In this document: positions 9,806-23,550 of the stretch, piece after piece
Layout: the number at the start of each line of letters is the position of its first letter
How positions within the stretch are numbered: the stretch's first letter is position 1
From: Oscillospiraceae bacterium
GTDB lineage: Bacteria > Bacillota > Clostridia > Oscillospirales > Oscillospiraceae
NCBI GenBank assembly: GCA_017519005.1
Contig: JAFWTG010000074.1
Coordinates: 1-47,826, forward strand
Direction of reading: 5' to 3'
Length of the DNA: 47,826 bases
Notes under the pieces: generated by a model
Told to the model about the DNA's origin: nothing
Seen by the model: only the letters and a program-made list of their open reading frames with translations
The model's database searches: none
Made by a program: the position numbers and the translations under genes

Positions 9806-9923
9806 CTGCTTCCACGCACCGATCGGGAATATCGTTTCTATAAAGATCATTTGGCACTGTTCAGGCTTGCGATCAAAAGGCCTGTTTGGAAAAATACAAA
9901 CGGAAAGGTTGGTTTCTCGCTTT

Positions 9924-11492
9924 ATGGATGAAAAGAAAGAAGTTGTGAAAACGAAACGGACGCCGCAGCCCAAGTTTTGGCACGCGCTCGTCGTCCTGGT
10001 CATCACGGTGGGGATTATAGCGTATTCCCTGATTATTGCCAAGTCCGACAGCGTCCACGTGGCCCTGTTCCTCGCCACCTGCGTGGCGGTCCTCATGTCC
10101 CTTGCCATCGGCTTCAAGTGGTCGCATCTCGAACAGTTGATGATCGAGAGCATCAAGAAGTCCCTGCAGTCCATCATGATCCTGCTGGTCATCGGTATGC
10201 TGACCGGCGTCTGGATGCTCTCCGGCGTCGTCCCCTCCATGATCTACTACGGTCTGCAGATCATGCGGCCTTCCTTCTTCCTGGCCGCGGTCATGATCAT
10301 CTGCTCAATCTGCTCCGTCGCCACCGGCTCCTCCTGGAGCACGGCCGCCTCCATGGGCATCGCCTTTCTGGGCATCTCCCACGGCCTGGGCATCAATCCC
10401 GCCATCACCGCCGGCGCTATCATCTCCGGCGCCTACTTCGGCGATAAGCTGTCTCCCCTCTCCGACACCACCAATCTGGCCCCCGCCATGGCCGGTACGG
10501 ACGTCATGACCCACGTCAAGTTCATGCTGATCCCCACAGGCATCACCTATGCGTTCACCCTCGCGGCCTTCGCGCTGATGCCTCTGGTCGCTAATTGGAT
10601 CCCCGGCTTTCACAGCGTGCTCTATTCCGGCAATGCCGGTATCGGCGATATGAGCTCCGCCAAGGCCCTGGGCGAAGCGATCAAGGATAACTTCACGATC
10701 AGCCCCCTTCTGCTGCTGCCTCCTCTGGTGGTCATCGTCGCCATCGCGCTGAAGCTCCCCGCCATCCCCGGCATCACCCTTGGCGTCTTTGCCGGTGCTG
10801 TCATGGGCCTGATTTTCCAGAAGGGCTGCACCGTCGGCGACATCCTCAACGTGAGCTTCGGCGGCTATGCCCTGAAGGAAGGCTACGTGTTCACGTCTGC
10901 CGCTTACTCAGAGGATATCCGCGGAGGTGTGACCGATGCCGTCTGGGCCCTGCTTGACGGCCGCGGCGGTATCAGCTCCATGGGCGATACCATATCCCTG
11001 GTACTCATCGCCATGATGTACGGCGGCGTCATGGAAGGCACCGGTATGCTGGCCAAGTTTGTGGGTTGGGTCAAAAAATTTGTTAAGACTCCGGGCTCTG
11101 TGGTTGCCCTCACCGAGGGAACCTGTATTTTCTCCAACGTGGCCATGCCCGACCAGTACGTCTCCATCGTCGTCGGCGGCCGGATGTACGGCGAGGATTA
11201 CGAAAAGATGGAGCTCTACCCGGCGGCCCTGTCCAACGCCCTCGAAAGCTCCGCCACCATCACCTCGGCCCTCGTTCCCTGGAACACCTGCGGCGCTTAT
11301 ATGACGAAAACCCTGGGTGTCCCGATCTGGGGGCTCGGCGGCTACGGCCCCTGGGCCATCTTCAACTGGCTGATGCCGATCATGAACGTCATTCTGGCCT
11401 ACATGGGCATCTCCGTCGCCGACAAAAACGGCGTCCGCCTGCGCAAGAAGAAGAGACTCGCCAAAAAAGCGCAGATGCGTCAAAAGCACTGA
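9924..11492 (+). CDS. NhaC-family Na+/H+ antiporter (second copy)
   Basis: This 522-residue paralogue of the upstream antiporter has C-S-V-A-T-G-S-S-W-S-T and G-A-I-I-S-G-A-Y-F-G-D-K-L-S-P-L-S-D-T-T-N. The latter is closer to textbook NhaC than the first copy's version (G-D-N-I-G-M-I-S-D). The two probably differ in substrate. The ATG at 9924 (M-D-E-K-K-E) is preferred. An upstream in-frame TTG at 9867 has no ribosome binding site, though the GGAAAGG before 9924 is also rather distant (about 16 bases). The C-terminus is strongly basic (R-K-K-K-R-L-A-K-K). A hairpin follows the stop. Confidence 0.85.
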   Translation: MDEKKEVVKTKRTPQPKFWHALVVLVITVGIIAYSLIIAKSDSVHVALFLATCVAVLMSLAIGFKWSHLEQLMIESIKKSLQSIMILLVIGMLTGVWMLSGVVPSMIYYGLQIMRPSFFLAAVMIICSICSVATGSSWSTAASMGIAFLGISHGLGINPAITAGAIISGAYFGDKLSPLSDTTNLAPAMAGTDVMTHVKFMLIPTGITYAFTLAAFALMPLVANWIPGFHSVLYSGNAGIGDMSSAKALGEAIKDNFTISPLLLLPPLVVIVAIALKLPAIPGITLGVFAGAVMGLIFQKGCTVGDILNVSFGGYALKEGYVFTSAAYSEDIRGGVTDAVWALLDGRGGISSMGDTISLVLIAMMYGGVMEGTGMLAKFVGWVKKFVKTPGSVVALTEGTCIFSNVAMPDQYVSIVVGGRMYGEDYEKMELYPAALSNALESSATITSALVPWNTCGAYMTKTLGVPIWGLGGYGPWAIFNWLMPIMNVILAYMGISVADKNGVRLRKKKRLAKKAQMRQKH

Positions 11493-11604: not shown

Positions 11605-11680
<76 letters not shown>

Positions 11681-12102: not shown

Positions 12103-12131
12103 TTGCAATCTATATGAATATCTGCTATAAT
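12103..12131 (+). promoter_or_regulatory. Promoter of the RiPP-like operon
   Basis: TTGCAA (12103-12108) and TATAAT (12126-12131) are 17 bases apart. Transcription would start near 12138 and leave a leader of about 150 bases before the first gene. Confidence 0.75.
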
Positions 12132-12287: not shown

Positions 12288-12560
12288 ATGCGTTTGATAC
12301 CCGGGTTTCAGCTTCGTCAGATCGGGAATGAATATTTAGCGGTTCCGTCCGGCGCCGCAGCCTCCCGGTTCAACGGGCTGATGATGCTCAACGAGACAGG
12401 TGCGTTCCTGTTTCGCTTCATGCAGGAGGATACGGACCGGGCAACGCTTCTGCATCGCTTGGAGGAGGAATACGAGGCGCCGGAGGCACAGCTCCGGGCG
12501 GACCTTGAGTCCTTCCTGTCTCAGATGCGGGAGGCGGGTCTGTTGGAGGAAGCGGTATGA
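12288..12560 (+). CDS. PqqD-like peptide-recognition (RRE) protein
   Basis: This 90-residue protein has the PqqD fold pattern: G-F-Q-L-R-Q-I-G-N-E-Y-L-A-V-P, then M-M-L-N-E-T-G-A-F-L-F-R-F-M-Q, and a helical C-terminus with L-L-H-R-L-E-E-E-Y and L-E-S-F-L-S-Q-M-R-E-A-G-L-L. PqqD-like proteins bind the leader of a ribosomal precursor peptide and present it to the modifying enzyme, usually a radical SAM protein. Both a candidate precursor (21201) and a radical SAM/SPASM enzyme (22391) are in this operon. The ATG at 12288 follows an AGAGGGTG site. The stop overlaps the next start by four bases (ATGA), which indicates translational coupling. Confidence 0.85.
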   Translation: MRLIPGFQLRQIGNEYLAVPSGAAASRFNGLMMLNETGAFLFRFMQEDTDRATLLHRLEEEYEAPEAQLRADLESFLSQMREAGLLEEAV

Positions 12561-13405
12561 GACGCCGTCGTTGGGCAGCCGCGGTCCTGGTGCTTTTCCT
12601 GCTGAGCGGCTGCACGGAGCCCGAAGCCTCCCCATCTGTGGGCAGCACCCAAGAGCTGCCAACGCCGACGCAAGCCCGCTCCGAAGCGTCGATCCCGGGA
12701 ACGACAGAGGTTCTGAGCGAAGCGACAGGCACGGCTGATTATACGGAGCCCCGCGCTGATTCCACAGCATCCTCTCAGCCGGAGCCGCCCGAAACAGCGT
12801 CCGACGGATCGCAATCGGTCCCGACGGAGCCGATTGCGCCGGAGCCCGCTCCCACCGAGGCCGCCGAGGTCCGGCCAAGAGTCCTCTCTCTGGGCCTTTA
12901 CACTGGCCCCTATCCGGAGGACGGCAGCGGCGAGCCCGTGGACAGCGTCGCGGTCATTCTGGTGGAAAATGACTCCGACACCCAGCTCCAGTTTGCGGAG
13001 CTCCACTACAGGATCGACGAACGGGATGCCCTGTTCCGGGTCTCGGAGCTGCCCCCGGGGGAACGGGCCCTGGTGGTCGAGCATTCCCAGCTGGTGGCGA
13101 CCCCGGTCTCCGTCTGGAAGGCCGTGCCGGAGGAGGATTTGCTCGTATATCTGGCCGCTGAAGCCTCGGACGGGTTGGAGCTCCGGTATGAGAAGGCCGG
13201 ATGGCTGCGCGTTATGAACAAAGGCAGCAAGGCCGCAAGCTTCGATCTGATCTACAAGCAGCGGGGCGAGGACGGGGTCTATACCGGCGGCATTGCCTAC
13301 CACGTGGCAGTTCCGATCCTGAAGCCGGGTGAGAGCGCTGATCTGGAGGCCCCGCATTACACAGAGGCCTCCGTGGTCGTCCGGATCACGGCAAAAGTTC
13401 CGTAA
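12557..13405 (+). CDS. Lipoprotein of unknown function in the RiPP-like operon
   Basis: The 282-residue product starts with a basic signal sequence and lipobox L-L-S-G-C (Cys19). A low-complexity Ser/Thr/Pro/Glu linker (about residues 20-110) would span the wall region. A globular domain of about 170 residues follows, beginning R-V-L-S-L-G-L-Y-T-G-P-Y. It has an immunoglobulin-like, beta-rich pattern (V-A-V-I-L-V-E-N-D-S-D, then L-P-P-G-E-R-A-L-V-V-E-H, and I-L-K-P-G-E-S-A-D-L-E-A). I recognise no enzyme motif. It overlaps the PqqD-like gene by four bases and precedes the giant SLH protein, so a role in assembling or anchoring the surface product outside the membrane is plausible but inferred. 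Confidence 0.75.
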   Translation: MRRRRWAAAVLVLFLLSGCTEPEASPSVGSTQELPTPTQARSEASIPGTTEVLSEATGTADYTEPRADSTASSQPEPPETASDGSQSVPTEPIAPEPAPTEAAEVRPRVLSLGLYTGPYPEDGSGEPVDSVAVILVENDSDTQLQFAELHYRIDERDALFRVSELPPGERALVVEHSQLVATPVSVWKAVPEEDLLVYLAAEASDGLELRYEKAGWLRVMNKGSKAASFDLIYKQRGEDGVYTGGIAYHVAVPILKPGESADLEAPHYTEASVVVRITAKVP

Positions 13406-13491
13406 CGAACAAGCGCAGGTCGTGCCTGCACCCATGTCAATCTGTGATTTATCGCCGCGGAGTCCGCGACGTTGGAAAGGGAGGAACCATT

Positions 13492-16400
13492 ATGAAACAA
13501 AGCTTGAAGCGATGGACAGCTCTGCTCCTGGCGCTGGTCATGACGGTAAGCCTGCTTCCGGTCGTCTCGCTGCCGACCTCGGCGCAGCAGGACACCGTCG
13601 GCACGCTGGACCACACCGACATCATCTCGCTGCCCATCACCATCCGCAACCATTCCGCCGACGGCATGCTCTTCGAATGGGACGGTCTGGGGAACAACGA
13701 GTACGAGGAAAAGCCCTTCCGCAACCCCTACAACACCAGCGACATCACCGAGCCCATCCCCTTTGTCGGCGTGAACCTCGCCGTGGGCCAGCTCTTCTGC
13801 AACGATTGGGACGTCAGTCTCGAAAACCTGAATCGGAACCGCACCGGCTTCGAAGAGGGCCTGAGCTACCATTACGGCGAAACCTGTGACTCCCGCTACG
13901 CGCATATTCAGCCAAACAACAAATCGTGGCGAGAGTATCCCGTCTGGGACAGCACGGTGGAGCATGGCGACGACACCAGCTACATGATCATCCGCTTTCG
14001 GACCAACGGCACGGTCTTCGAGGATACGCTCTTCGTCAAACGCTATAAGAATAACAACGATTACTGGCAGTCCGGTGTGAATCTGACCGCCACCAACGCC
14101 TACGGCCCTTACAAGCTGGTGGGAATCGAGGATGGCTGGACCACCATCGCGGTGGACCTGAATGACGAAGACGTGAACCCGATCTTCCACAACTCGTCGA
14201 ATAACACGAATTCAGAAGGCTATCCGGGAAGAAATGACAAGATCAGCAAGATCTCCATCGGCTTCAACAACAATAGCGACCATGATTATCAGTTGGATAT
14301 CAGCTTCATCGCCTTCTTCATCCGTCTGCTGGACAATTCGGGAGGCGGCAGTCTGTACCACAATCCTTTCCGCTATTGCGGCTATGACTTCATCAACCAG
14401 GACTACTGCTTCCGGATGAACGATCCCACCATCACCGTGGTGGAGCCCAGACCCGCCATCGGCATCAACCTGCTGCTGGATTGGACGACGGGAAATCTGA
14501 GCATTTCGGGAACCGGCGCCCATCTGGACAACCACGCCTCCGCCGACACGGAGCCTGGGTCTGACTGGGACAAATACATTACGATCAGCGCCGGCTCCGA
14601 GCCGGCCACGGCAACCCTGTGGGCCTCGTCCAGCTCCGAGGACTACTATCCCGCGGGTATGGCCCGCTATGCGGCACTCCGCTGCAAGGCGGACTTCAAC
14701 GCGGAGCTCACAATCCTCGCCAACGGCAGCGAGGTGGTCACCAGCTTCAACCCCGCCACGGTGACAGAGGGCGGCGACGTTCTGGACATCCAGACCGATA
14801 CCACCACGGAAAACGGCGCGACGGTGAGCTGGAAAACCGTTATCATCGACACGCATTACGACGGGAGCGTGGTCAGCATGGAGCTCCAGGTCCCCGCCGG
14901 AAAGAGTCTGGATCTGGCCTACGCCGGTCTGTTCCGGGACTATGACCCGACCTTCACCAGCGGCTATAACTACGCCACCGACGCCCGGGTCTTCGTCTTC
15001 GAGGACTACAGCTACCGCCACGACCGGATTGCCTACTACACCCCCATCGAGCACTACAAGGTCTGGCGTGACAACAGCGAAACCAACAGCGTCGTTCACT
15101 TCAAGGACAATGACGGCGCGTCCTTCGACCCCAACGCCGTCGTCAACATCGAGCACGAATTCTATGCCGGCGGAACCGCCTGCGGATTCAGCGACGACAA
15201 CCCCCTTAGCGCGGAAAACGGCACCGTCCAGCTCGTAACCGACAACAACGGCAACAAATATATGCGCTTGACCGATACGGGCAGCGAGCGGGGCATCGGC
15301 CTGCGGTCGATCCTGATGACCGGCGTCAACAAGCCCGCCAATCAGCTCCGCTACGCCGTGGTCTCCTACAAGGTGGAGAGCAAGGGCAGCGCCACAGGCG
15401 ACACCGTCCCCATGTACGTCATGCTGGACACCGCCGGCAGCGGCTTTGACTACAGCACTGTGACCCTCGGCTTCTTTGACGCCGTGGCCGACGACGCCTG
15501 GCACGTGGACGTGCTGGACCTCTCCGAATGCGTCAGCCGCGCCCCCAACGGCGAGACCTACAAATACAAGCACGACACCTTCACGAATAACAGCAACATT
15601 CAGCGCATCGGCATCGCCGACGGCTGGGCTGTCTACGGTGCCGAGCTCCACCTGGCCTACCTGGCCCTCTTCGACAGCGCGAAGAAGGCCGAGCAGTACG
15701 GCAACGCCTACTCCGAGGCCTACAAATCCATCCGTAACTTCCCTACCAGCGAAACCGGCGCAGCGAGCTTCGCCGTTATGACCAACGCCTACACCGCCGA
15801 TCTGGGCCAGGTGCAGGACGATCTGTATAAGCTCAACAACGGCGAAAAGGAGTACTGGGAGGGCGCCAACGGCAGCAAGCGCTTCCGCGTGGGCTCCAAC
15901 AACGGCTTCGAGCTGCTGGACCCGGATTACGCCTACAATAACAACAGCTTCTATCACGCCGACACCAACGGCTACGACAGCTACAACCAGAAGTACGTAC
16001 CCAACTACTACAAGGACATGGGCTTCGGCGAGTATGTCAAGAACAACAGCACTTATACGAACTACAACGTGGGCCCCAACGGCCAGCTCAGCTACTACAA
16101 CGACGATCACCGCCGCGACATCAGCTCCACCAACGGCGCATCCGGCATCTGGGGCAAATCCGTTGACACCTACGGCTACATCATGGGCCTGACGGAGCGG
16201 CAGCTGGCGGAAGTGGGAGATCAAAAATATATCCGCTACCGGCAGGAGGTCGTGACGTACCTGGCCCAGCTCCTGCAAAACGCCCTGAACGTGCCCCGGA
16301 CCTTCATGTGGTACGACATCCAGTTCTACAGCGCCAACTACGTCCAGGGCGACGTGGACGGAGATCGCTTCGGCTACTATGACGAGCTGCTGGAGGACGG

Positions 16401-19400
16401 GTCCGAAAACGTCAACGCCATGTTCCCCCGGGACTACGCGGGCTGGCTGCGTTACAAGCTGGGCGTCACCGAGCGGGACGGCAGCCTGACCGGAAGCCGC
16501 GGCAAACTGGGCAGCTGGGCTCTGACCGAGCCGAGGGGCGAGGCTCTGATCGCCGACCGGGAGCAGATCGAGACCTGGACCGATGCTGCCTACTACATGC
16601 TCAACACCCTCTTCCTGCCCTCTGCCGGCGAGGAGGTCCCCGAGTACAAATATCTCCAGCTGGTCCGCGAGACCCCCGCCGGCGGCAGCGAGGAGGACAG
16701 CTACTACGTCTTCGACACCCGCTACACCAACGTCATGTTCGACTTCGACCGGGGCATCATCGGCAACAACGGTATCTACGAGAACCCGGACACCTCCATC
16801 AAGGACACCACCAACGGTCAGGTCGCCACCTACGCCTTCCTGCCCATCCTCCGGGAGCTGCCGGAGTTCCAGGCCACCTTCCCTTATCTGCGGGATAACG
16901 GCATCGCCAACAAGGACGACGGGGCCGACAGTTACTACAACCGTGACTACAACTTCACCCTGGAGTGCCACGGCACCTTCACCTACTATGCGGACAAGGA
17001 CCTGTTCTTTGAGTTCGACGGCGACGACGACGTGTATCTGTACGTGAACGGCACCTGCGTCCTGGACCTGGGCGGCGCCCACCGGGCCACCAACCAGCTC
17101 GTCAGGATCAACGACTACGTATCCAAGGGCATTCTCAATCTGGAGGAGAACACGGAGTATCCCTTCGACTTCTACTTCATGGAGCGCCACGGCACCGGCT
17201 CCAACCTCCGCATCCAGACCAACATGGAGGTCTTCAGCGATAACATTCAGACCGAAAAGACCGCCAGCCAGACCATCGATGGCGTCACCACTGAGCTGCC
17301 TGACTACAGTATTGCGGACTTCACCAAGCCCGTCAGCTACAGCTTTGCCATCACCAACAACTTTGATCCGGTGGGCAAGCTGACCAACTTCTCTTTCAAG
17401 GACAGCGACATCAATTTCTACGCCGGCTATGACAGCGTCGCCCTGGGCAGCGTCACCGCAGATACACCCCGCCAGGTCACAGATCTGACTGTGACCGTCA
17501 AGGACAGCGGCGGAAACATCGTGTTCTCAGATACCCCGGAAAACACCGATCAGTTGCAGATTATGCTGAGTAATCCCGGCGGACGGGGCGGCCTGGCCTA
17601 CGGCGAAACTCTGATTCTCTCCGGCGTCCAGTACGTGATCGGCGAGGGTCACTCCGCCTTCTCCAACACGGTGATCTCCCGTGCGGGCAAGCACTCCGGC
17701 GTCGCTTATCACCACCTGCTCAGCGGCACCAGCCCCATCCACTACTTTGCTTGGAAGGGCCACGATCTGGAAATTCCTATTTCGGAGATCATCGCGTTGA
17801 AGGATCCCCAAGATACCGGAAACTGGAGCGACATCTACCGCTGCAATGACAGCCTCAACGCTCTGAACACCGGCGACGTGATTGTGGACCGGGGCAGCGG
17901 TGTGATCAAGGTCAACTACAGCAGCACAGGCACCCGCCGTCTGAACTTCACCAGCGATACCAGCCTTCCCTCGCGCTATCCCATCAGCGTGGATATCCAC
18001 GTGCTGGACGCGGCGGACAACGTCTATGTGCTGGATTTCGACGGCAGAACCAATCTGGGCAAGGATGTCGAGCACAACAATCAATACAGCTTCGCACAGA
18101 ACGATGTGTACTCCCTGCCCGGCGTCAAGGCCAAGGTGCGCTATGAGGCCTTTACCGACGAAGCTCCCAGCTACTCCGAAAACCACCTCAGCTTCGAGAG
18201 CGATCCCTGGTACAAGGATTATCTTACAAATCCCAGCGCCAAGGTCCTTGTGACCATTGACAGCGACAAGTCCTATCGGGATCCCGCCGGCGGTGCGCTG
18301 GAGCAGAGCGTTACCGTCGGGCAGCCCATGGTTGACGTGATCGTGCATCCGACGAACCCCTTCAGCCATCCGCTTTCCGCTCCCAGCATCGATCCGTCCG
18401 ACGGCTCCGGTATAACCGCGACGCAGATTCATAACCGTCTGTATCTGGAGGCAGGCGGCTGGTGGCTAGATGCCGACGCAAGCACAAAGATACGATTCTG
18501 CGATTCCAGTGATAATGCTGATGCCAATGATTCCACCTTCGTTCCCATGAATGAGATCAGCTCGGACAACAACGTAAAGCGTTATTGGATTGATATCCCA
18601 GCGAACGGCAATTATACACATTTCAGAATCGTCCGATACGGCTTCAAAGACAACCGCTGGCAATATTGGAATGCAAGCGGGGCAATTGCGCTGGACGGCA
18701 ACAACGTCTACCGGGTAAACAACGGCGACGTCTCGCAGCTCAGCAATACCAGCGGCGCCTCCTATATGATCTCCGGTTCGCCCACCTGCAATACCGCAGT
18801 AAGCTTTAGCGGAACCGCGACCGCCCCTGCAGTCGAAACGCATCCCGATCCGGTAAGCCCTCCCTACTACTTCAAGGAAGGCGAGCGGGTGAGTCTGTCC
18901 TGTATCGACAATGACGGCCTTGAGATGGGCACCAACAGCAGCCAGGGCACCTTCACCGTGAAGCTGCCGGATAACTCCGACGAGCTGCCCACTCTGTATT
19001 ACCGGCCCAAAAACATCATGGACGGCGCGTCCATGATTTGGCTGACCTCCCGCGTCTATGAGGATAAGACCGGCGTGGAACCCAGCGAATACCTGGGCAA
19101 CGCCGATCCCCATAAGGAAGTGGAGATGTTCCAGCGCATCACCGTAGTCCCCGCCAACGTGGTCTACTACGAGGACGTCAACGATGGCATCGTCTATCAT
19201 CAGGAAAACGAAGCAGGCAGCAATGAATATCAGGAATATCAACCCACAGTGACCTGGACCCACGGAGAGGGCGCAGCGCCCCTGTCTCCCGATCAGACTG
19301 CAGACCAATCCACCCCGTATGGCTACGACCCCGCCTACACCGGCGCCGGCCATTACAGCGGCAACGGCGCGACGAAGATCACCTTCAAGGGCAATGTCAC

Positions 19401-21204
19401 ACTGGCCGAATTCGACTTCCAGGGCACGGGCTTTGACCTCTTCAGCCGCTGCATGAGCGACGCCCCCACCGTGATGGCCAAGATCTACGAGCACTCCGAC
19501 GAGCCGCAGCACGAATACACGGAGCAGGAGCTGTTGAAAACCGCCTACGTCATCACCGAGTTCAACAACAACGCGATCAGCGAAGGCGAGGTCATGTACC
19601 AGGTTCCCGTCCTTTCCATCCACGATCTGGACTGGGACAAGTATCACGTGGTCCTCGACGGCATCGGCCACGTGGATATGAGTCACTGGAGCATTGTCAG
19701 GGAAAACGGCAGCTATTATATGGTCAAGGACAGCGATCCTCCCGAAAAATGGAAAATCCTGATCAAAGAAAACCCCGTGCAATATCAAAAGGTGCAGAGC
19801 GAGGGCCAGCCTGAGATCATAACAACCCTGAACCCGGCCTCCGTAGATACGGAGTTCTGGCTGGATGGTCTGCGGGTCTACGGAGCACTGCAACCACAAG
19901 ATCAGGATCTGTACTACAACCCCAACGAGGCCAACGCTTCCTTTGTTGAGGTCCGCGACTTGCTCACAAACAAGAAGGGCATCGCCGTCAACTACACGAA
20001 CGATCTGACCCAGATTTCCAACGGCAGCTTCACCTCCATTGTTGAGCTCCGCAACGAAACCGCCGACGACGATCTCCAGCTCGATGAAAACGGCAACGCC
20101 AATCTGAGCGCTTACTTCCTGGTCGGTCCCAACAACGAGCTCTACCTGAAGAGCAGCCCGGCGGCGCAGCAAGCCGTGGCCTTCACCCTTTCGCTCGACG
20201 CTGCGTACAGCGGAACGAGGACCTTCCAGATCGCCGCTAAGCTGTTGGATACTTCGAGCTTCGGAACTCCCGACAGCCCCCGCGAGCTCTCCTATCTGAC
20301 TGCCGCCAACACCTGGAAGTCTCTTGGCACGATCCGTTCCGGCACGGAGCTGTATTACGAGCTGGATCCTACCCTCTGTCCGCAGCTGGACGGCGCTTTT
20401 ATCGTCATCATCGGCGTTCCCTATCCCGCGGAACCCCAGGGCGGCGATTCGCAGACGGAGAACGTTTCCCTGGTCTCCCTGACCAAGGTAAAGTACAAGG
20501 GGTGGAACATCGAAGAGAAGTATTCCGATGAAATGAACTTCCTCTATTACAACAACGATCCCTCCACCGGCATCATCATCGGCGTTACGCCCGAAGGCAG
20601 CGAACAGCTCGGCGCCGTTATCCGTCTGCTCGCAGCCGCCCGGCCGCCAAAACCCGCGCTTCCCTTCAGTGACGTCCCCGCCGACGCCTGGTACGCCGAT
20701 CCGGTGGCCTGGGCTTACAGCAACGGAATCACGGCCGGCGTCTCCTCCGACAGCTTCGGACCCGACCTGGTCTGTACCCGCGCGCAGGCGGTTACCTTCC
20801 TCTGGAAGGCTGCCGGCGCACCTGCGCCCGCCCAGAGCGTTTCCTTTACCGACGTTCCCGACAACAGCTGGTATGCCCAAGCTGTGGCCTGGGCCTATGA
20901 GAACGGGATCACCGCGGGCACCTCGGAAAGCACCTTCAGCCCCGGAGCCGTGTGTACAAGAGCCCAGGTCGCAACCTTCCTCTGGCGCTGTGCCGGTTCT
21001 CCGGTGAGCGACTGGGACTCCGGCTTTATCGACGTTGCTTCTGACGACTGGTACGCGCCTGCCGTGCGCTGGGCCGCGGAGAACGGCATTACCGCCGGCA
21101 CCTCTGCAAATACCTTCAGCCCCACTCGGAACTGCAGCCGGGCGGAGATCGTGACCTTCCTCTACCGCAGTGCGGATTTCATCATTGGAGGCGAACAGGA
21201 ATGA
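13492..21204 (+). CDS. Giant SLH-anchored surface protein with a fibro-slime domain
   Basis: This 2570-residue secreted protein has a signal peptide (M-K-Q-S-L-K-R-W-T-A-L-L-L-A, cleavage near T-S-A-Q-Q). Long beta-rich regions of unknown fold follow. A fibro-slime/PA14-like domain lies at about residues 1155-1250: T-Y-Y-A-D-K-D-L-F-F-E-F-D-G-D-D-D-V-Y-L-Y, then N-G-T-C-V-L-D-L-G-G-A-H. More beta modules come next, and three SLH repeats at about residues 2390-2560 contain the A-V-A-W-A-Y-E-N-G-I-T-A-G type motif. The start with G-G-A-G-G upstream is preferred over an earlier GTG. Its stop overlaps the start of the small peptide gene (ATGA), so the two are translationally coupled. The protein is probably a matrix or adhesin partner of the peptide. 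Confidence 0.85.
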   Translation: MKQSLKRWTALLLALVMTVSLLPVVSLPTSAQQDTVGTLDHTDIISLPITIRNHSADGMLFEWDGLGNNEYEEKPFRNPYNTSDITEPIPFVGVNLAVGQLFCNDWDVSLENLNRNRTGFEEGLSYHYGETCDSRYAHIQPNNKSWREYPVWDSTVEHGDDTSYMIIRFRTNGTVFEDTLFVKRYKNNNDYWQSGVNLTATNAYGPYKLVGIEDGWTTIAVDLNDEDVNPIFHNSSNNTNSEGYPGRNDKISKISIGFNNNSDHDYQLDISFIAFFIRLLDNSGGGSLYHNPFRYCGYDFINQDYCFRMNDPTITVVEPRPAIGINLLLDWTTGNLSISGTGAHLDNHASADTEPGSDWDKYITISAGSEPATATLWASSSSEDYYPAGMARYAALRCKADFNAELTILANGSEVVTSFNPATVTEGGDVLDIQTDTTTENGATVSWKTVIIDTHYDGSVVSMELQVPAGKSLDLAYAGLFRDYDPTFTSGYNYATDARVFVFEDYSYRHDRIAYYTPIEHYKVWRDNSETNSVVHFKDNDGASFDPNAVVNIEHEFYAGGTACGFSDDNPLSAENGTVQLVTDNNGNKYMRLTDTGSERGIGLRSILMTGVNKPANQLRYAVVSYKVESKGSATGDTVPMYVMLDTAGSGFDYSTVTLGFFDAVADDAWHVDVLDLSECVSRAPNGETYKYKHDTFTNNSNIQRIGIADGWAVYGAELHLAYLALFDSAKKAEQYGNAYSEAYKSIRNFPTSETGAASFAVMTNAYTADLGQVQDDLYKLNNGEKEYWEGANGSKRFRVGSNNGFELLDPDYAYNNNSFYHADTNGYDSYNQKYVPNYYKDMGFGEYVKNNSTYTNYNVGPNGQLSYYNDDHRRDISSTNGASGIWGKSVDTYGYIMGLTERQLAEVGDQKYIRYRQEVVTYLAQLLQNALNVPRTFMWYDIQFYSANYVQGDVDGDRFGYYDELLEDGSENVNAMFPRDYAGWLRYKLGVTERDGSLTGSRGKLGSWALTEPRGEALIADREQIETWTDAAYYMLNTLFLPSAGEEVPEYKYLQLVRETPAGGSEEDSYYVFDTRYTNVMFDFDRGIIGNNGIYENPDTSIKDTTNGQVATYAFLPILRELPEFQATFPYLRDNGIANKDDGADSYYNRDYNFTLECHGTFTYYADKDLFFEFDGDDDVYLYVNGTCVLDLGGAHRATNQLVRINDYVSKGILNLEENTEYPFDFYFMERHGTGSNLRIQTNMEVFSDNIQTEKTASQTIDGVTTELPDYSIADFTKPVSYSFAITNNFDPVGKLTNFSFKDSDINFYAGYDSVALGSVTADTPRQVTDLTVTVKDSGGNIVFSDTPENTDQLQIMLSNPGGRGGLAYGETLILSGVQYVIGEGHSAFSNTVISRAGKHSGVAYHHLLSGTSPIHYFAWKGHDLEIPISEIIALKDPQDTGNWSDIYRCNDSLNALNTGDVIVDRGSGVIKVNYSSTGTRRLNFTSDTSLPSRYPISVDIHVLDAADNVYVLDFDGRTNLGKDVEHNNQYSFAQNDVYSLPGVKAKVRYEAFTDEAPSYSENHLSFESDPWYKDYLTNPSAKVLVTIDSDKSYRDPAGGALEQSVTVGQPMVDVIVHPTNPFSHPLSAPSIDPSDGSGITATQIHNRLYLEAGGWWLDADASTKIRFCDSSDNADANDSTFVPMNEISSDNNVKRYWIDIPANGNYTHFRIVRYGFKDNRWQYWNASGAIALDGNNVYRVNNGDVSQLSNTSGASYMISGSPTCNTAVSFSGTATAPAVETHPDPVSPPYYFKEGERVSLSCIDNDGLEMGTNSSQGTFTVKLPDNSDELPTLYYRPKNIMDGASMIWLTSRVYEDKTGVEPSEYLGNADPHKEVEMFQRITVVPANVVYYEDVNDGIVYHQENEAGSNEYQEYQPTVTWTHGEGAAPLSPDQTADQSTPYGYDPAYTGAGHYSGNGATKITFKGNVTLAEFDFQGTGFDLFSRCMSDAPTVMAKIYEHSDEPQHEYTEQELLKTAYVITEFNNNAISEGEVMYQVPVLSIHDLDWDKYHVVLDGIGHVDMSHWSIVRENGSYYMVKDSDPPEKWKILIKENPVQYQKVQSEGQPEIITTLNPASVDTEFWLDGLRVYGALQPQDQDLYYNPNEANASFVEVRDLLTNKKGIAVNYTNDLTQISNGSFTSIVELRNETADDDLQLDENGNANLSAYFLVGPNNELYLKSSPAAQQAVAFTLSLDAAYSGTRTFQIAAKLLDTSSFGTPDSPRELSYLTAANTWKSLGTIRSGTELYYELDPTLCPQLDGAFIVIIGVPYPAEPQGGDSQTENVSLVSLTKVKYKGWNIEEKYSDEMNFLYYNNDPSTGIIIGVTPEGSEQLGAVIRLLAAARPPKPALPFSDVPADAWYADPVAWAYSNGITAGVSSDSFGPDLVCTRAQAVTFLWKAAGAPAPAQSVSFTDVPDNSWYAQAVAWAYENGITAGTSESTFSPGAVCTRAQVATFLWRCAGSPVSDWDSGFIDVASDDWYAPAVRWAAENGITAGTSANTFSPTRNCSRAEIVTFLYRSADFIIGGEQE

Positions 21205-21470
21205 AAAAGACCTATCAAGCTCCCAGAGTCATCATGGAGGCGTTTGATGTGACGGCACAGGCAGCCAGCTGCAATGCAGTCCAGATCAGCTCCGCAGACG
21301 CGATGTGCGTTATACAGGACTCTGACTCCACCCCCGGTATGATAGACTTTGCCTTCTTCGGCGGCTTCCTCTACACGCCAGGCTGCACGATTCCTGTCCC
21401 GGATTATGATCAGAATACCGGTGACAGTCTCTGCTATCACACCAGCGTCGCCATGGTCTTCACCAGCTGA
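21201..21470 (+). CDS. Candidate RiPP precursor peptide with four cysteines
   Basis: This 89-residue protein has no transmembrane segment. Its basic/aromatic start, M-K-K-T-Y-Q-A-P-R-V, followed by E-A-F-D-V-T-A-Q-A-A-S-C, looks like the leader of small clostridial peptides. Four cysteines (24, 36, 62, 78) are spread through an uncharged core rich in Gly, Thr, Ser and Pro. The chain ends in F-T-S, a C-terminal serine. It lies between the giant SLH protein (four-base overlap) and the kinase and radical SAM genes. Its size, leader-like start, Cys content and position make it the likely substrate of the modifying enzymes. It could instead be a structural accessory of the SLH protein. Confidence 0.65.
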   Translation: MKKTYQAPRVIMEAFDVTAQAASCNAVQISSADAMCVIQDSDSTPGMIDFAFFGGFLYTPGCTIPVPDYDQNTGDSLCYHTSVAMVFTS

Positions 21471-21473
21471 GCG

Positions 21474-22340
21474 ATGGGCTGCACGCTGAATATCGCGGGA
21501 CTGGGCTTTCATCTTGAAAGCCCGGTCCCCCTGGACCTGCATCCCCACTATATTCCCTATCTGGACGAGAGCAAGGACCCGGATGTGTTCATCCGGGTCC
21601 TCTCCGACCCGCCGGAATATCCCTCCGACGCGCCGGTGTTCTTTAACGGCAGAATGGCCGTGTATCAGACTTCCCAGGGCTGGTTCCGGGAGCATCGGAT
21701 CTGGAAGTGGGCAGAGAAGGACCCTGAAAACCCCTGCCTGATTCCCGAGTCCGACGGCAGCTATTCCCTTCGAGTCCCCCCGGCGCGGCTTCCCTTTCTG
21801 GCAAATCAGTGTGAGTTTCTGTGGCTCCTGGCCCCGGAGGCCCGTCTGGCCGAGCGCCGACGGCTGATTCTGCATTCCGCCTCAGTGGTTCTCGACGGCA
21901 AGGCCTATGCCTTTTTCGGTCCAGCCCGTATCGGGAAGTCCACCCATGCGGCTCAGTGGACCACGACCCTGTGCGCTGCCCCCCTGACCGGCGACCGTAC
22001 GGTTCTCGAATGGCGGGAGGACGGAAGCTTCCTGGCCTACGGCTCCCCGTTCTGCGGCTCCTCCGGCCTCTGTCTGCAGGAACGGGCTCCTCTGGGGGGA
22101 CTCTGCCTGCTGGGTCAGGCCGCAGAAAACCGGATCGAGCTGCTTTCTCCCGCCCGGGCTTTCCGGGAGCTCTATGCCCAGACCATTGTCAACACCTGGG
22201 ACAGCGCACAATCCTCCCTGCTCTGCGACGAGCTCACCGCCTTGATTGAGACGTATCCCATCTATCATCTGGACTGCCGTCTCGGACCTGAAGGCGCTCT
22301 GCTCTGTGCCGGCGTACTGCGGAGCGGGAAGCTCGCATAA
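21474..22340 (+). CDS. HprK-like P-loop kinase of a peptide-modification cluster
   Basis: This 288-residue protein resembles the HPr-kinase-related proteins found with PqqD-like genes. The Walker A loop is G-P-A-R-I-G-K-S-T (residues 149-157), preceded by R-L-I-L-H-S-A-S-V-V-L-D-G. The later motifs T-G-D-R-T-V-L-E, Y-G-S-P-F-C-G-S-S-G and A-P-L-G-G-L-C-L-L-G follow the order seen in that family. HprK-like kinases in lasso-peptide clusters phosphorylate the C-terminal serine of the precursor, and here the candidate precursor ends in serine. That link is inference. The gene starts three bases after the peptide stop, with no clear ribosome binding site of its own. Confidence 0.75.
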   Translation: MGCTLNIAGLGFHLESPVPLDLHPHYIPYLDESKDPDVFIRVLSDPPEYPSDAPVFFNGRMAVYQTSQGWFREHRIWKWAEKDPENPCLIPESDGSYSLRVPPARLPFLANQCEFLWLLAPEARLAERRRLILHSASVVLDGKAYAFFGPARIGKSTHAAQWTTTLCAAPLTGDRTVLEWREDGSFLAYGSPFCGSSGLCLQERAPLGGLCLLGQAAENRIELLSPARAFRELYAQTIVNTWDSAQSSLLCDELTALIETYPIYHLDCRLGPEGALLCAGVLRSGKLA

Positions 22341-22390
22341 CTCCCCCCGCAGGGGGAAATCTCATTTTTGCTTTCCCGAAAGGAACCGCT

Positions 22391-23488
22391 ATGAAACAAG
22401 ACTATCCCATCCGTCAGATGCTGCTGCAGCGGGCCGCTCTGACCAAGGACCCCATCAGCGGAATTCTGGAGCTGACGCCCCGCTGCAATCTGCGCTGCCG
22501 GATGTGCTATATCCGCATGTCGCCGGAGGAGATGGCTCCCCGGGGGCGGGAGCGTACATTGGCGGAATGGCTTGCCATCGCTGAAGAGCTCCGGAACGCC
22601 GGCGTTGTCTTTCTGCTGCTCACCGGCGGAGAGCCATTGCTCCGCCCGGATTTTCCCCAGCTCTATCGAGCCCTGGCCGGTATGGGCTTTTCCATCTCCC
22701 TCAACACGAACGGCACGCTGATGAACGACGAAATCGCCGCGCTCTTCCGGGAGCTCCCCCCCGCTGCGGTCAACCTGACCCTCTATGGGGCCGGAGAATC
22801 GGCTTACGGACGGCTCTGCGGCGACGAGCAAGCGTTCCATCGGGCCTCAAACGCAATTGCACTGCTCCAGGCCAACGGAACTGCCCTGCGTCTCAACACA
22901 ACCGTGACTTCCTGCAATCAGGAAGAGCTTCCGCGCATCGCTGCGTTTGCCAAGGCGCGGTCTCTGCCGCTCCGTGTCGTCACCTACCTGTTTCCGCCTC
23001 TGCGGCGGGACGGACCCGGAATGGAACGGCTCCCGCCGGAGGAGGCCGGCGCGCTCTCCGCCGAGAGTCGGCGCTGGACCGACGACCCGGAGCTGCTGGC
23101 CGCCCGGATCGCGGCGGTGAAGGCCAGAGTTCCGGAGCCCTGCGCCCCCGGGGAGGACTGTCTCGGAGGAAGCCGGGAGGGCCTGCGCTGCGTCGCGGGC
23201 AACTGTCAGTTCTGGATCGCCTGGAACGGAGAGATGTACCCCTGCGGCATGATGCCTGAGCCGGTGGTCTATCCCTTCCGTGACGGTTTTCTTGCTGCCT
23301 GGCGCGCTCTGACCGGGAGCTGTGCAAAGCTTCCGGTTGCCTTAGACTGTGAAGCCTGTTCGCTGAAGTCCTACTGCCTCGCCTGCGCCGCCGTGGCAAG
23401 AGCCGAGACCGGACGGACCGACGGTATTCCCGACTACGCCTGCCGTCTGACAGAGGCCTATTGCCGCACCCTTGGCAACATGGAATAA
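22391..23488 (+). CDS. Radical SAM/SPASM peptide-modifying enzyme
   Basis: The 365-residue enzyme carries the radical SAM cluster motif C-N-L-R-C-R-M-C (Cys32, 36, 39) right after E-L-T-P-R. The SAM-binding G-G-E-P motif (L-L-T-G-G-E-P-L-L-R) follows. The C-terminal part is a SPASM domain with about ten cysteines, including G-N-C-Q-F-W-I-A-W-N-G-E-M-Y-P-C-G and C-E-A-C-S-L-K-S-Y-C-L-A-C, enough for two auxiliary iron-sulfur clusters. Such enzymes install thioether or C-C crosslinks in peptides. With the PqqD-like protein and the four-Cys peptide in the same operon, the peptide is the obvious substrate. The start has an AAAGGAA site, and a bidirectional terminator follows. Confidence 0.87.
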   Translation: MKQDYPIRQMLLQRAALTKDPISGILELTPRCNLRCRMCYIRMSPEEMAPRGRERTLAEWLAIAEELRNAGVVFLLLTGGEPLLRPDFPQLYRALAGMGFSISLNTNGTLMNDEIAALFRELPPAAVNLTLYGAGESAYGRLCGDEQAFHRASNAIALLQANGTALRLNTTVTSCNQEELPRIAAFAKARSLPLRVVTYLFPPLRRDGPGMERLPPEEAGALSAESRRWTDDPELLAARIAAVKARVPEPCAPGEDCLGGSREGLRCVAGNCQFWIAWNGEMYPCGMMPEPVVYPFRDGFLAAWRALTGSCAKLPVALDCEACSLKSYCLACAAVARAETGRTDGIPDYACRLTEAYCRTLGNME

Positions 23489-23504: not shown

Positions 23505-23550
23505 AACAACGCCCGCCGAGCTTCCCTGCGGAAGGTCGGCGGGCGTTGTT
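23505..23550. terminator. Bidirectional terminator between the RiPP-like operon and the sugar importer
   Basis: A perfect 15-bp inverted repeat (AACAACGCCCGCCGA) with a 16-base loop lies between the converging radical SAM and permease genes. On the minus strand it is followed by GCATTTTT, on the plus strand by TGATTG. Confidence 0.9.

Follow-up and report, generated by a model that had tools for sequence, protein, structure and literature searches.

A putative peptide-modification pathway associated with a conserved module of giant exported proteins in Clostridia

Pathways of ribosomally synthesized and post-translationally modified peptides (RiPPs) are generally understood to produce secreted weapons, signals or cofactors. 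Why should such a pathway share an operon with the gene of a giant surface protein? The question is raised by a 47,826-nt stretch of DNA from an Oscillospiraceae bacterium (GenBank assembly GCA_017519005.1, contig JAFWTG010000074.1; hereafter ‘the window’), where six co-directional genes on the + strand, at 12288–23488, encode a PqqD-like protein, a lipoprotein, a giant exported protein, an 89-aa peptide, an HprK-like kinase and a radical S-adenosylmethionine (SAM)/SPASM enzyme. An earlier note on the window had described these six genes, in one direction with ATGA overlaps or short gaps and with a hairpin at the end, all of which we found; it had proposed that the peptide, crosslinked and possibly phosphorylated, is displayed on, or matures, the surface protein. 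We propose, with a probability of about 0.6, that the operon belongs to a RiPP-type system serving a single class of exported proteins, and that the peptide of this system would be modified, phosphorylated on Ser and exported in trans.

Recurrence of the gene set

The radical SAM protein was searched for in 394 genomes of the order Oscillospirales and, separately, in the genus of the window genome. It was detected in 13 of the 394 genomes (E ≤ 1e-45) and in 10 of 24 genomes of the genus (E ≤ 1e-20). Two loci, L125 (genome G326) and L062 (genome G013), have the genes for a giant protein, peptide, lipoprotein-family protein, kinase, radical SAM enzyme and PqqD-like protein in a single run (handles with L, G and C denote loci, genomes and contigs). 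Most parts of the system are also present in L083, L084, L128–L131 and L133. Together with L125 and L062, these loci represent other genera and families of the order.

A profile of 14 radical SAM proteins (alignment A2), nearly all from loci of this system, was used to pick 80 loci, the best 80 of at least 496 radical SAM relatives among at least 591 pattern-matched stretches. For the kinase, PqqD-like protein, lipoprotein and peptide, a gene had to lie within 10 kb of the enzyme gene to be counted; other parts were counted anywhere in the locus. The 80 loci cannot be treated as independent, since one genome contributes several of them, L177 and L196 share part of a contig and L155 is a contig of G267, a sister genome. 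Genes were called by an amino-acid and third-position scorer, which misses some genes (e.g. around L257), so that gene absences are soft.

The loci contain genes for the kinase (73 of 80), the PqqD-like protein (68), the peptide (56), the lipoprotein family (45) and a giant protein with the module described below (45, including a 160-aa fragment in L194), as well as NTP_transf_5-like (22), S24-like peptidase (15) and ABC exporter (14) genes. For the 31 loci with at least 9 kb on both flanks the numbers are, in the same order, 29, 27, 24, 17, 21, 15, 9 and 10. Joint conservation of a precursor with a leader, a RiPP recognition element (RRE, here the PqqD-like protein) and a modifying enzyme is one feature expected of a RiPP system, and it is seen here. 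The peptide, on whose conservation beside the enzymes the earlier proposal depended, was found in loci picked by the radical SAM profile alone. It is present in 44 of the 45 loci with a module protein, and in 27 of these 44 the giant gene immediately precedes the peptide gene on the same strand, overlapping it or leaving at most 120 bp between them, as in the window. Gene order varies among loci; gene content persists.

Most of the 80 loci originate from Clostridia (Oscillospiraceae, Lachnospiraceae and others). Isolates among the carriers include Anaeromassilibacillus senegalensis, of which strain An867 has all six parts in locus L188, Faecalicatena contorta and Clostridium manihotivorum; two loci (L199 and L215) come from Erysipelotrichaceae and Thomasclavelia. 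Positions 1–21098 of L164 (Candidatus Mediterraneibacter) hold two tandem giant–peptide–kinase–radical SAM units, the first of them truncated where the stretch ends, followed by Wzz/tyrosine-kinase-like genes, an NTP_transf_5 gene and an ABC-exporter-like gene; the tandem units suggest a separate peptide for each giant protein.

A module common to the giant proteins

The giant gene of the window (13492–21204, + strand) encodes 2570 aa with a signal peptide (by eye), a fibro-slime/PA14 domain at aa 1151–1246 (16942–17229; NCBIfam Fibro_Slime, E 2.3e-21; Pfam PA14) and three stretches of SLH repeats (Pfam PF00395, approximately 20662–21168), the features of an SLH-anchored surface protein. The earlier note expected the peptide gene and the SLH gene to travel together. 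Peptide, lipoprotein family and giant protein do recur together. As conserved partner, SLH and fibro-slime domains were ruled out, the other partner proteins carrying other domains: outside the module, matches in 12 other giants are to VWA, GH20, GH88, PA14, ricin-B lectin, Ig-like repeats and dockerin, with nothing found in L209. For the SLH region of the window giant, a total of 43 matches was obtained in G267, some 40 of them at other places.

When 42 large proteins encoded next to the peptide were compared all against all, one region proved common to nearly all of them. Judged by profile matches, this module of ~500 aa (alignment A3; 18877–20538 in the window), not SLH, is the constant partner of the peptide. 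After an unrelated neighbour (L182) was dropped, the module profile matched 38 of 41 giants. For L160 a wrong neighbour had been taken at first, and its true partner matches the profile; the giants of L189 and L123 have no match in the stretches covered, though for L123 a search of its genome yielded a partial match within this protein. Because the profile was trained on those same giants, the test of the module is an independent genome search.

In this search the module was found in 12 of the 394 genomes, and 11 of these 12 also belong to the 13 that have the enzyme (E ≤ 1e-45; Fisher P = 1.2e-18, relatedness ignored); the module and enzyme scans were taken to cover the same genomes, as number and handles agree. 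The coinciding genomes come from four families. Among the misfits, G171 has the module at a contig end, G183 has the enzyme on a 3-kb contig and G227 has the enzyme beside an exporter and an S24-like peptidase, with no giant protein seen. The peptide profile was detected in 13 of the 394 genomes, eleven of them with the enzyme. Among the 18 module matches listed, 14 have a peptide gene adjoining the giant gene or in the same run, while those in G171 and on contig C14 of G275 end at the contig edge. At least one further module protein is encoded in G275 (L259). Four peptide matches were observed elsewhere in that genome, and the peptide of L258 has no adjoining kinase or radical SAM gene.

Among ORFs of at least 300 aa in the loci examined, the module profile matches 20 of 783; seven exported proteins of 459–2437 aa encoded in other peptide loci, one of them truncated at a contig end, were compared with it and none matches. 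The libraries searched do not contain the module: neither Pfam nor NCBIfam has a family covering it, this part of the window protein is unmatched and single members have scattered weak matches (CE2_N in 2 of 23). In an AlphaFold model (pLDDT 71) the first half is predicted to be a jelly roll resembling CBM35 domains and the N-terminal domains of CE2, and the second half a further beta part.

The precursor peptide and its terminal serine

The peptide gene (21201–21470, + strand) encodes 89 aa with an MKKxYxxP leader, four Cys and the C-terminal sequence CYHTSVAMVFTS; it is matched by profile A1 and has an orthologue in L096. A counterpart at the same place in G267, 72% identical and with a pN/pS of 0.44, indicates that the gene is real.

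The best peptide matches in the 56 loci are 71–152 aa long. All 56 have [YWF]xxP within the first 22 residues, a partly circular result as the profile contains the motif, and in 48 the second residue after the Pro is Leu, Ile or Val, as in leaders of YxxPxL type. Four Cys are present in 41 peptides. The last residue is Ser in 54 of 56, as it already was in 15 of the 16 peptides used to train the profile; in the window the codon of this Ser, the proposed phosphorylation site, is located at 21465–21467. Kinase and enzyme genes are at most 10 kb apart in all peptide-bearing loci except L171. Another 21 complete family peptides, the window's included, comprise 19 ending in Ser, the other two being from G275. 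Ten second peptide matches in the 80 loci were excluded (nine end in Ser and one, L179 with E 6e-3, in Ala), and the G342 peptide, cut by a contig end, was left out. Weak profile matches with internal stops end in Phe (G145) and Asp (G408).

Peptides of other types were also observed. In L087–L093 (genomes G263, G249, G266, G260, G250, G267 and G265, of the same genus) a peptide with an MKFEKPIxEIxKF-like leader lies beside a radical SAM enzyme, with an exported protein in some loci and no kinase. These peptides end in NCL, DCL or DCI in six of the seven loci (this was not seen in L090), so that in the kinase-less loci L087–L089 and L091–L093 the last residue is Leu or Ile in 6/6. The module is absent from the two exported proteins of this type that were checked, and a related radical SAM gene is present in the window genome (contig C23, L095).

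Short YxxP peptides near an HprK-like kinase, with no radical SAM gene and no terminal Ser, were seen in L048, L050, L053, L055 and L058. A large exported protein adjoins the peptide in four of these five loci, the giants checked have no module, and PqqD and S24-like peptidase genes are mostly present (neither was seen in L053). The precursors of L195, L197, L208, L215, L226 and L045 are about 100–157 aa long and have leaders with ...ANxxxAxC-like ends; the module is absent from these loci. Several of these longer precursors end in HPNHS or PNRS, and an ABC exporter and an S24-like peptidase are also present in L195, L208 and L045; the six loci look like an exporter-linked sister type.

The modifying proteins and the lipoprotein

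The PqqD-like protein (12288–12560, + strand, 90 aa) is a putative RRE; its match to Pfam PqqD (PF05402, E 3.5e-16) is above threshold, and PqqD_rel_X gives 22.8 bits (cut-off 35). The radical SAM enzyme (22391–23488, + strand, 365 aa; Pfam PF04055, E 1.9e-24) has the CxxxCxxC motif at C32, C36 and C39, invariant in the 14 rows of A2. Also invariant there are C267, C285, C320, C323, C329, C332 and C351, which by the SPASM consensus are of SPASM type; the Pfam SPASM match is below cut-off (14.3 vs 21.5 bits). Against named maturase models, the best 25 of 76 NCBIfam matches are far below cut-off (best 84.3 bits vs 500; StsB 71.4 vs 625). The nearest solved relative by sequence is SkfB (E 2.3e-25).

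The P-loop kinase (21474–22340, + strand, 288 aa) matches no Pfam family and a single NCBIfam family only at E 0.14, and has no relative among known structures at E ≤ 1. Its HprK likeness is concluded from the P-loop and from its relatives: ScmC and HprK_rel_B are each matched by 14 of 15 of these, at best with E 2.3e-8 and E 3.6e-5, respectively. In the family alignment His134 (86 of 86), Lys155 (85 of 86) and Asp174 (86 of 86) are conserved, the last being the second Asp of the lasso-kinase motif. According to an excerpt of PMC9266682, PadeK, ThcoK, SyanK and PsmK phosphorylate the terminal Ser of lasso precursors, and this Ser is conserved where a PadeK-like kinase is encoded. By analogy, precursors ending in Ser like several lasso-kinase substrates lend support to the earlier suggestion that the peptide may be phosphorylated.

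The lipoprotein (12557–13405, + strand, 282 aa) has the lipobox LLSGC (by eye). In members of its family the conserved region (alignment A4) is preceded by a membrane anchor, read by eye as either a lipobox or a hydrophobic helix. Residues about 105–282 of the window protein are modelled as two tandem Ig-like beta domains, mostly with pLDDT >90; a Pfam scan of 16 members found no family common to more than two. The lipoprotein family was detected in 9 of the 394 genomes (one marginal), six of which have the module.

Layout and surroundings of the operon

A sigma-70-like promoter candidate, TTGCAA-17-TATAAT (12103–12131, + strand), was found by consensus scan only. ATGA overlaps join the PqqD-like and lipoprotein genes (12557) and the giant and peptide genes (21201), the remaining gaps being short. 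Downstream, a strong hairpin (23505–23550, + strand; folding energy −41.2 kcal/mol, z −7.7) is a probable terminator between convergent genes; a terminator scan of the window did not list it, probably because its T run is short. On the 5′ side are an antiporter-like gene (9867–11492, by eye) and tRNA-Thr (11605–11680), and on the 3′ side convergent genes resembling sugar ABC permeases (by eye).

In G267 the operon is split across two contigs, with the same downstream genes adjoining. Identity to the window is 75% for the giant protein (an orthologue), 72% for the peptide, 84% each for the kinase and the radical SAM enzyme and 77% for a lipoprotein fragment, the PqqD gene being outside the G267 contig. 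The pN/pS values of 0.21–0.54 indicate that the five genes compared are under selection as proteins.

A second copy of the operon was sought in the window genome (G000) and none was seen in stretches around PqqD or kinase places on contigs C2, C28, C40, C47 and C77; contig C57 has a weak kinase match (E 0.03). Short HprK-like pieces near PqqD or NTP_transf_5 genes on C2 and C40 (L010 and L012) are possibly decayed or contig-cut peptide loci.

Proposed role and alternative explanations

How could such genes act together? From what is known of the protein families, the PqqD-like RRE would bind the YxxP leader of the 89-aa precursor and present the precursor to two enzymes, of which the radical SAM/SPASM enzyme would alter the Cys-containing core; an excerpt of PMC12710340 describes YxxP as an RRE recognition motif. 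The Ser pattern suggests that the HprK-like kinase phosphorylates the C-terminal Ser. The leader would then be removed and the product exported in trans by an ABC exporter encoded elsewhere. From the co-occurrence of the genes we infer that outside the cell the mature peptide would act jointly with two partners, the ~500-aa module of the giant protein and the membrane-anchored Ig-like protein; it would most likely be bound or attached to the module.

The absence of an exporter from the operon, stated in the earlier note, is correct for the operon itself. Beyond it, ABC exporters adjoin 14 of the 80 relatives, and contig C125 of the window genome encodes an exporter homologue. This protein is 40% identical to the exporter of L062 over nearly the full length (E 7e-146) and matches that of L045 at E 4.7e-189; the 16 kb around its gene contain no recognised peptide gene. 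The earlier interpretation keeps the conservation of peptide and enzymes and their recurrence with a giant protein; SLH/fibro-slime as constant partner does not hold.

Several observations weigh against the proposed system. The six-gene operon has no exporter or peptidase gene. Two module proteins of G275 (contigs C25 and C16; L253 and L255) have no peptide gene nearby, and the lipoprotein family was found in only 6 of the 12 genomes with the module. Within the peptide family, exceptions to the terminal Ser are Leu (L218), Val (L226), Phe (L124, no kinase near) and Tyr (L259, kinase near). None of six precursor-like peptides beside an HprK-like kinase without a radical SAM enzyme ends in Ser; the L094 peptide, which has kinase, PqqD and radical SAM genes beside it and is outside the peptide profile, ends in Pro. 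These kinase loci and L094 ruled out the rule that a kinase means a terminal Ser. The first Asp of the lasso-kinase His-Lys-Asp-Asp motif is replaced by Gly (83 of 86) or Asn (3 of 86), and the kinase family is far more widespread than the system, with matches at E ≤ 1e-10 in 58 of 245 genomes; judged from its sequence distribution, the kinase alone is no marker of the system. According to an excerpt of PMC10368454, lasso leaders carry YxxPxL and an RRE accelerates the kinase BsfK, the target of which is Ser3, not the last residue; in BsfA, Ala in place of the Tyr or Leu of YxxPxL leaves phosphorylation intact. The Ser3 site and the kinase-linked peptides with other last residues mean that the phosphorylation site is not readable from family membership alone.

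A more specific version of the proposal is that modified peptides complete exported proteins. Each large exoprotein with the module would be paired with a peptide of its own, modified by a radical SAM enzyme and phosphorylated on Ser, which would serve as its ligand, adaptor or covalent attachment and be presented by the Ig-like protein; we offer this tentatively, at somewhat less than even odds. If true, RiPP chemistry would serve surface-protein maturation or anchoring rather than a secreted weapon, signal or cofactor. A pathway widespread in gut Clostridia and tied to an undescribed module of giant surface proteins would give RiPPs a structural function on the cell surface as well, and the kinase would carry phosphorylation of a terminal Ser over from lasso peptides to peptides that a radical SAM enzyme has modified. 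The module, the YxxP leader and the terminal Ser could be used as markers for finding and testing such systems.

Alternatively, the peptide could be a bacteriocin-type weapon or signal, with the giant protein binding target cells or delivering the peptide and the Ig-like protein giving self-protection. Ruminococcin C, a radical SAM-modified Cys peptide of a gut Clostridium relative, is anti-clostridial (excerpt of PMC6779426). A membrane-anchored two-domain protein could be an immunity protein, and the peptide cores are more variable than the leaders (by eye). However, exporters adjoin only 14 of 80 loci (10 of the 31 with long flanks), and we know of no bacteriocin that needs a partner of 1000–4000 aa with one conserved module. 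We consider this explanation unlikely.

Slightly less probable still is a peptide that is never exported, i.e. a modified peptide in the cytosol regulating synthesis or secretion of the adjoining giant protein. The window operon without exporter or leader peptidase would fit, as would the 66 of 80 relatives without an exporter, though many of these stretches are short, and so would the overlap of the peptide and giant genes in the window and their close spacing in 27 of 44 loci. Yet the recurring partners are two extracellular proteins (module and Ig-like), not a regulator, some relatives do have exporters and the window genome has the homologue on C125.

The pathway and the giant gene could also share inheritance only, as parts of one exchangeable surface island with no mutual action. 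Wzz/BY-kinase-like polysaccharide genes are near the system in 16 of the 80 loci (e.g. L158, L177, L193, L207 and L224), and peptide and module distances correlate mainly via shared ancestry: over 41 pairs, the partial correlation given the radical SAM enzyme is 0.18 for the whole peptide vs the module and 0.21 for the core. This co-divergence is weak and is not our main evidence. Arguing against shared inheritance alone, the module is constant while the remainder of the giant protein is not, the 11 of 394 genomes with both module and enzyme come from four families, and content persists under differing gene order; we regard it as improbable.

Consumption of the precursor into a small cofactor, as in the PQQ and mycofactocin pathways, with which the system has a PqqD-like protein and a SPASM enzyme in common, is very improbable given precursors of 71–152 aa with a conserved terminal Ser and a kinase, and four divergent precursors in G275.

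Comparison with known systems

The biosynthetic half of the proposed system is a new combination of known kinds; in the open-access literature we found no description of a coupling between a peptide pathway and a surface protein. The system resembles those of phosphorylated lasso peptides (paeninodin PadeK, ThcoK, pseudomycoidin PsmK/PsmN) in the YxxP leader, the PqqD-like RRE, the HprK-like kinase and the C-terminal Ser. The NTP_transf_5 (PF14907) homologues of 22 of the 80 relatives are a further likeness, membership of the same Pfam family as PsmN being only a candidate relation; PsmN is termed a nucleotidyltransferase in an excerpt of PMC9266682. Unlike in lasso systems, a radical SAM enzyme replaces the lasso cyclase and B2 peptidase (a Pfam scan limited to the six operon proteins found no Asn-synthetase-like cyclase or B2 peptidase domain), the core is longer and Cys-rich, a surface protein is coupled and the first Asp of the kinase motif is missing.

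As in sactipeptide and ranthipeptide systems, a radical SAM/SPASM enzyme gene adjoins that of a Cys-containing precursor, and SkfB is the nearest solved relative; in contrast to them, the RRE is separate, a kinase is present, an exporter seldom adjoins and the best 25 of 76 NCBIfam matches are far below cut-off. The HPr-rel-A systems (TIGR04352/TIGR04353) also combine a PqqD-like protein with an HprK-like kinase. Differences from these are the PqqD score given above (22.8 vs 35 bits), the window kinase with no match at E ≤ 0.1 and the addition of the radical SAM enzyme and the module.

In the PEP-CTERM/exosortase system and the type IX secretion system (T9SS), exoproteins with C-terminal sorting modules are served by a dedicated system. 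A Pfam scan of the six operon proteins found no sortase-like or T9SS domain. The likeness is in the arrangement: here too varied enzymes and adhesins have one conserved module in common that is tied to a dedicated gene set, with the difference that the partner of the module is a peptide-modifying pathway.

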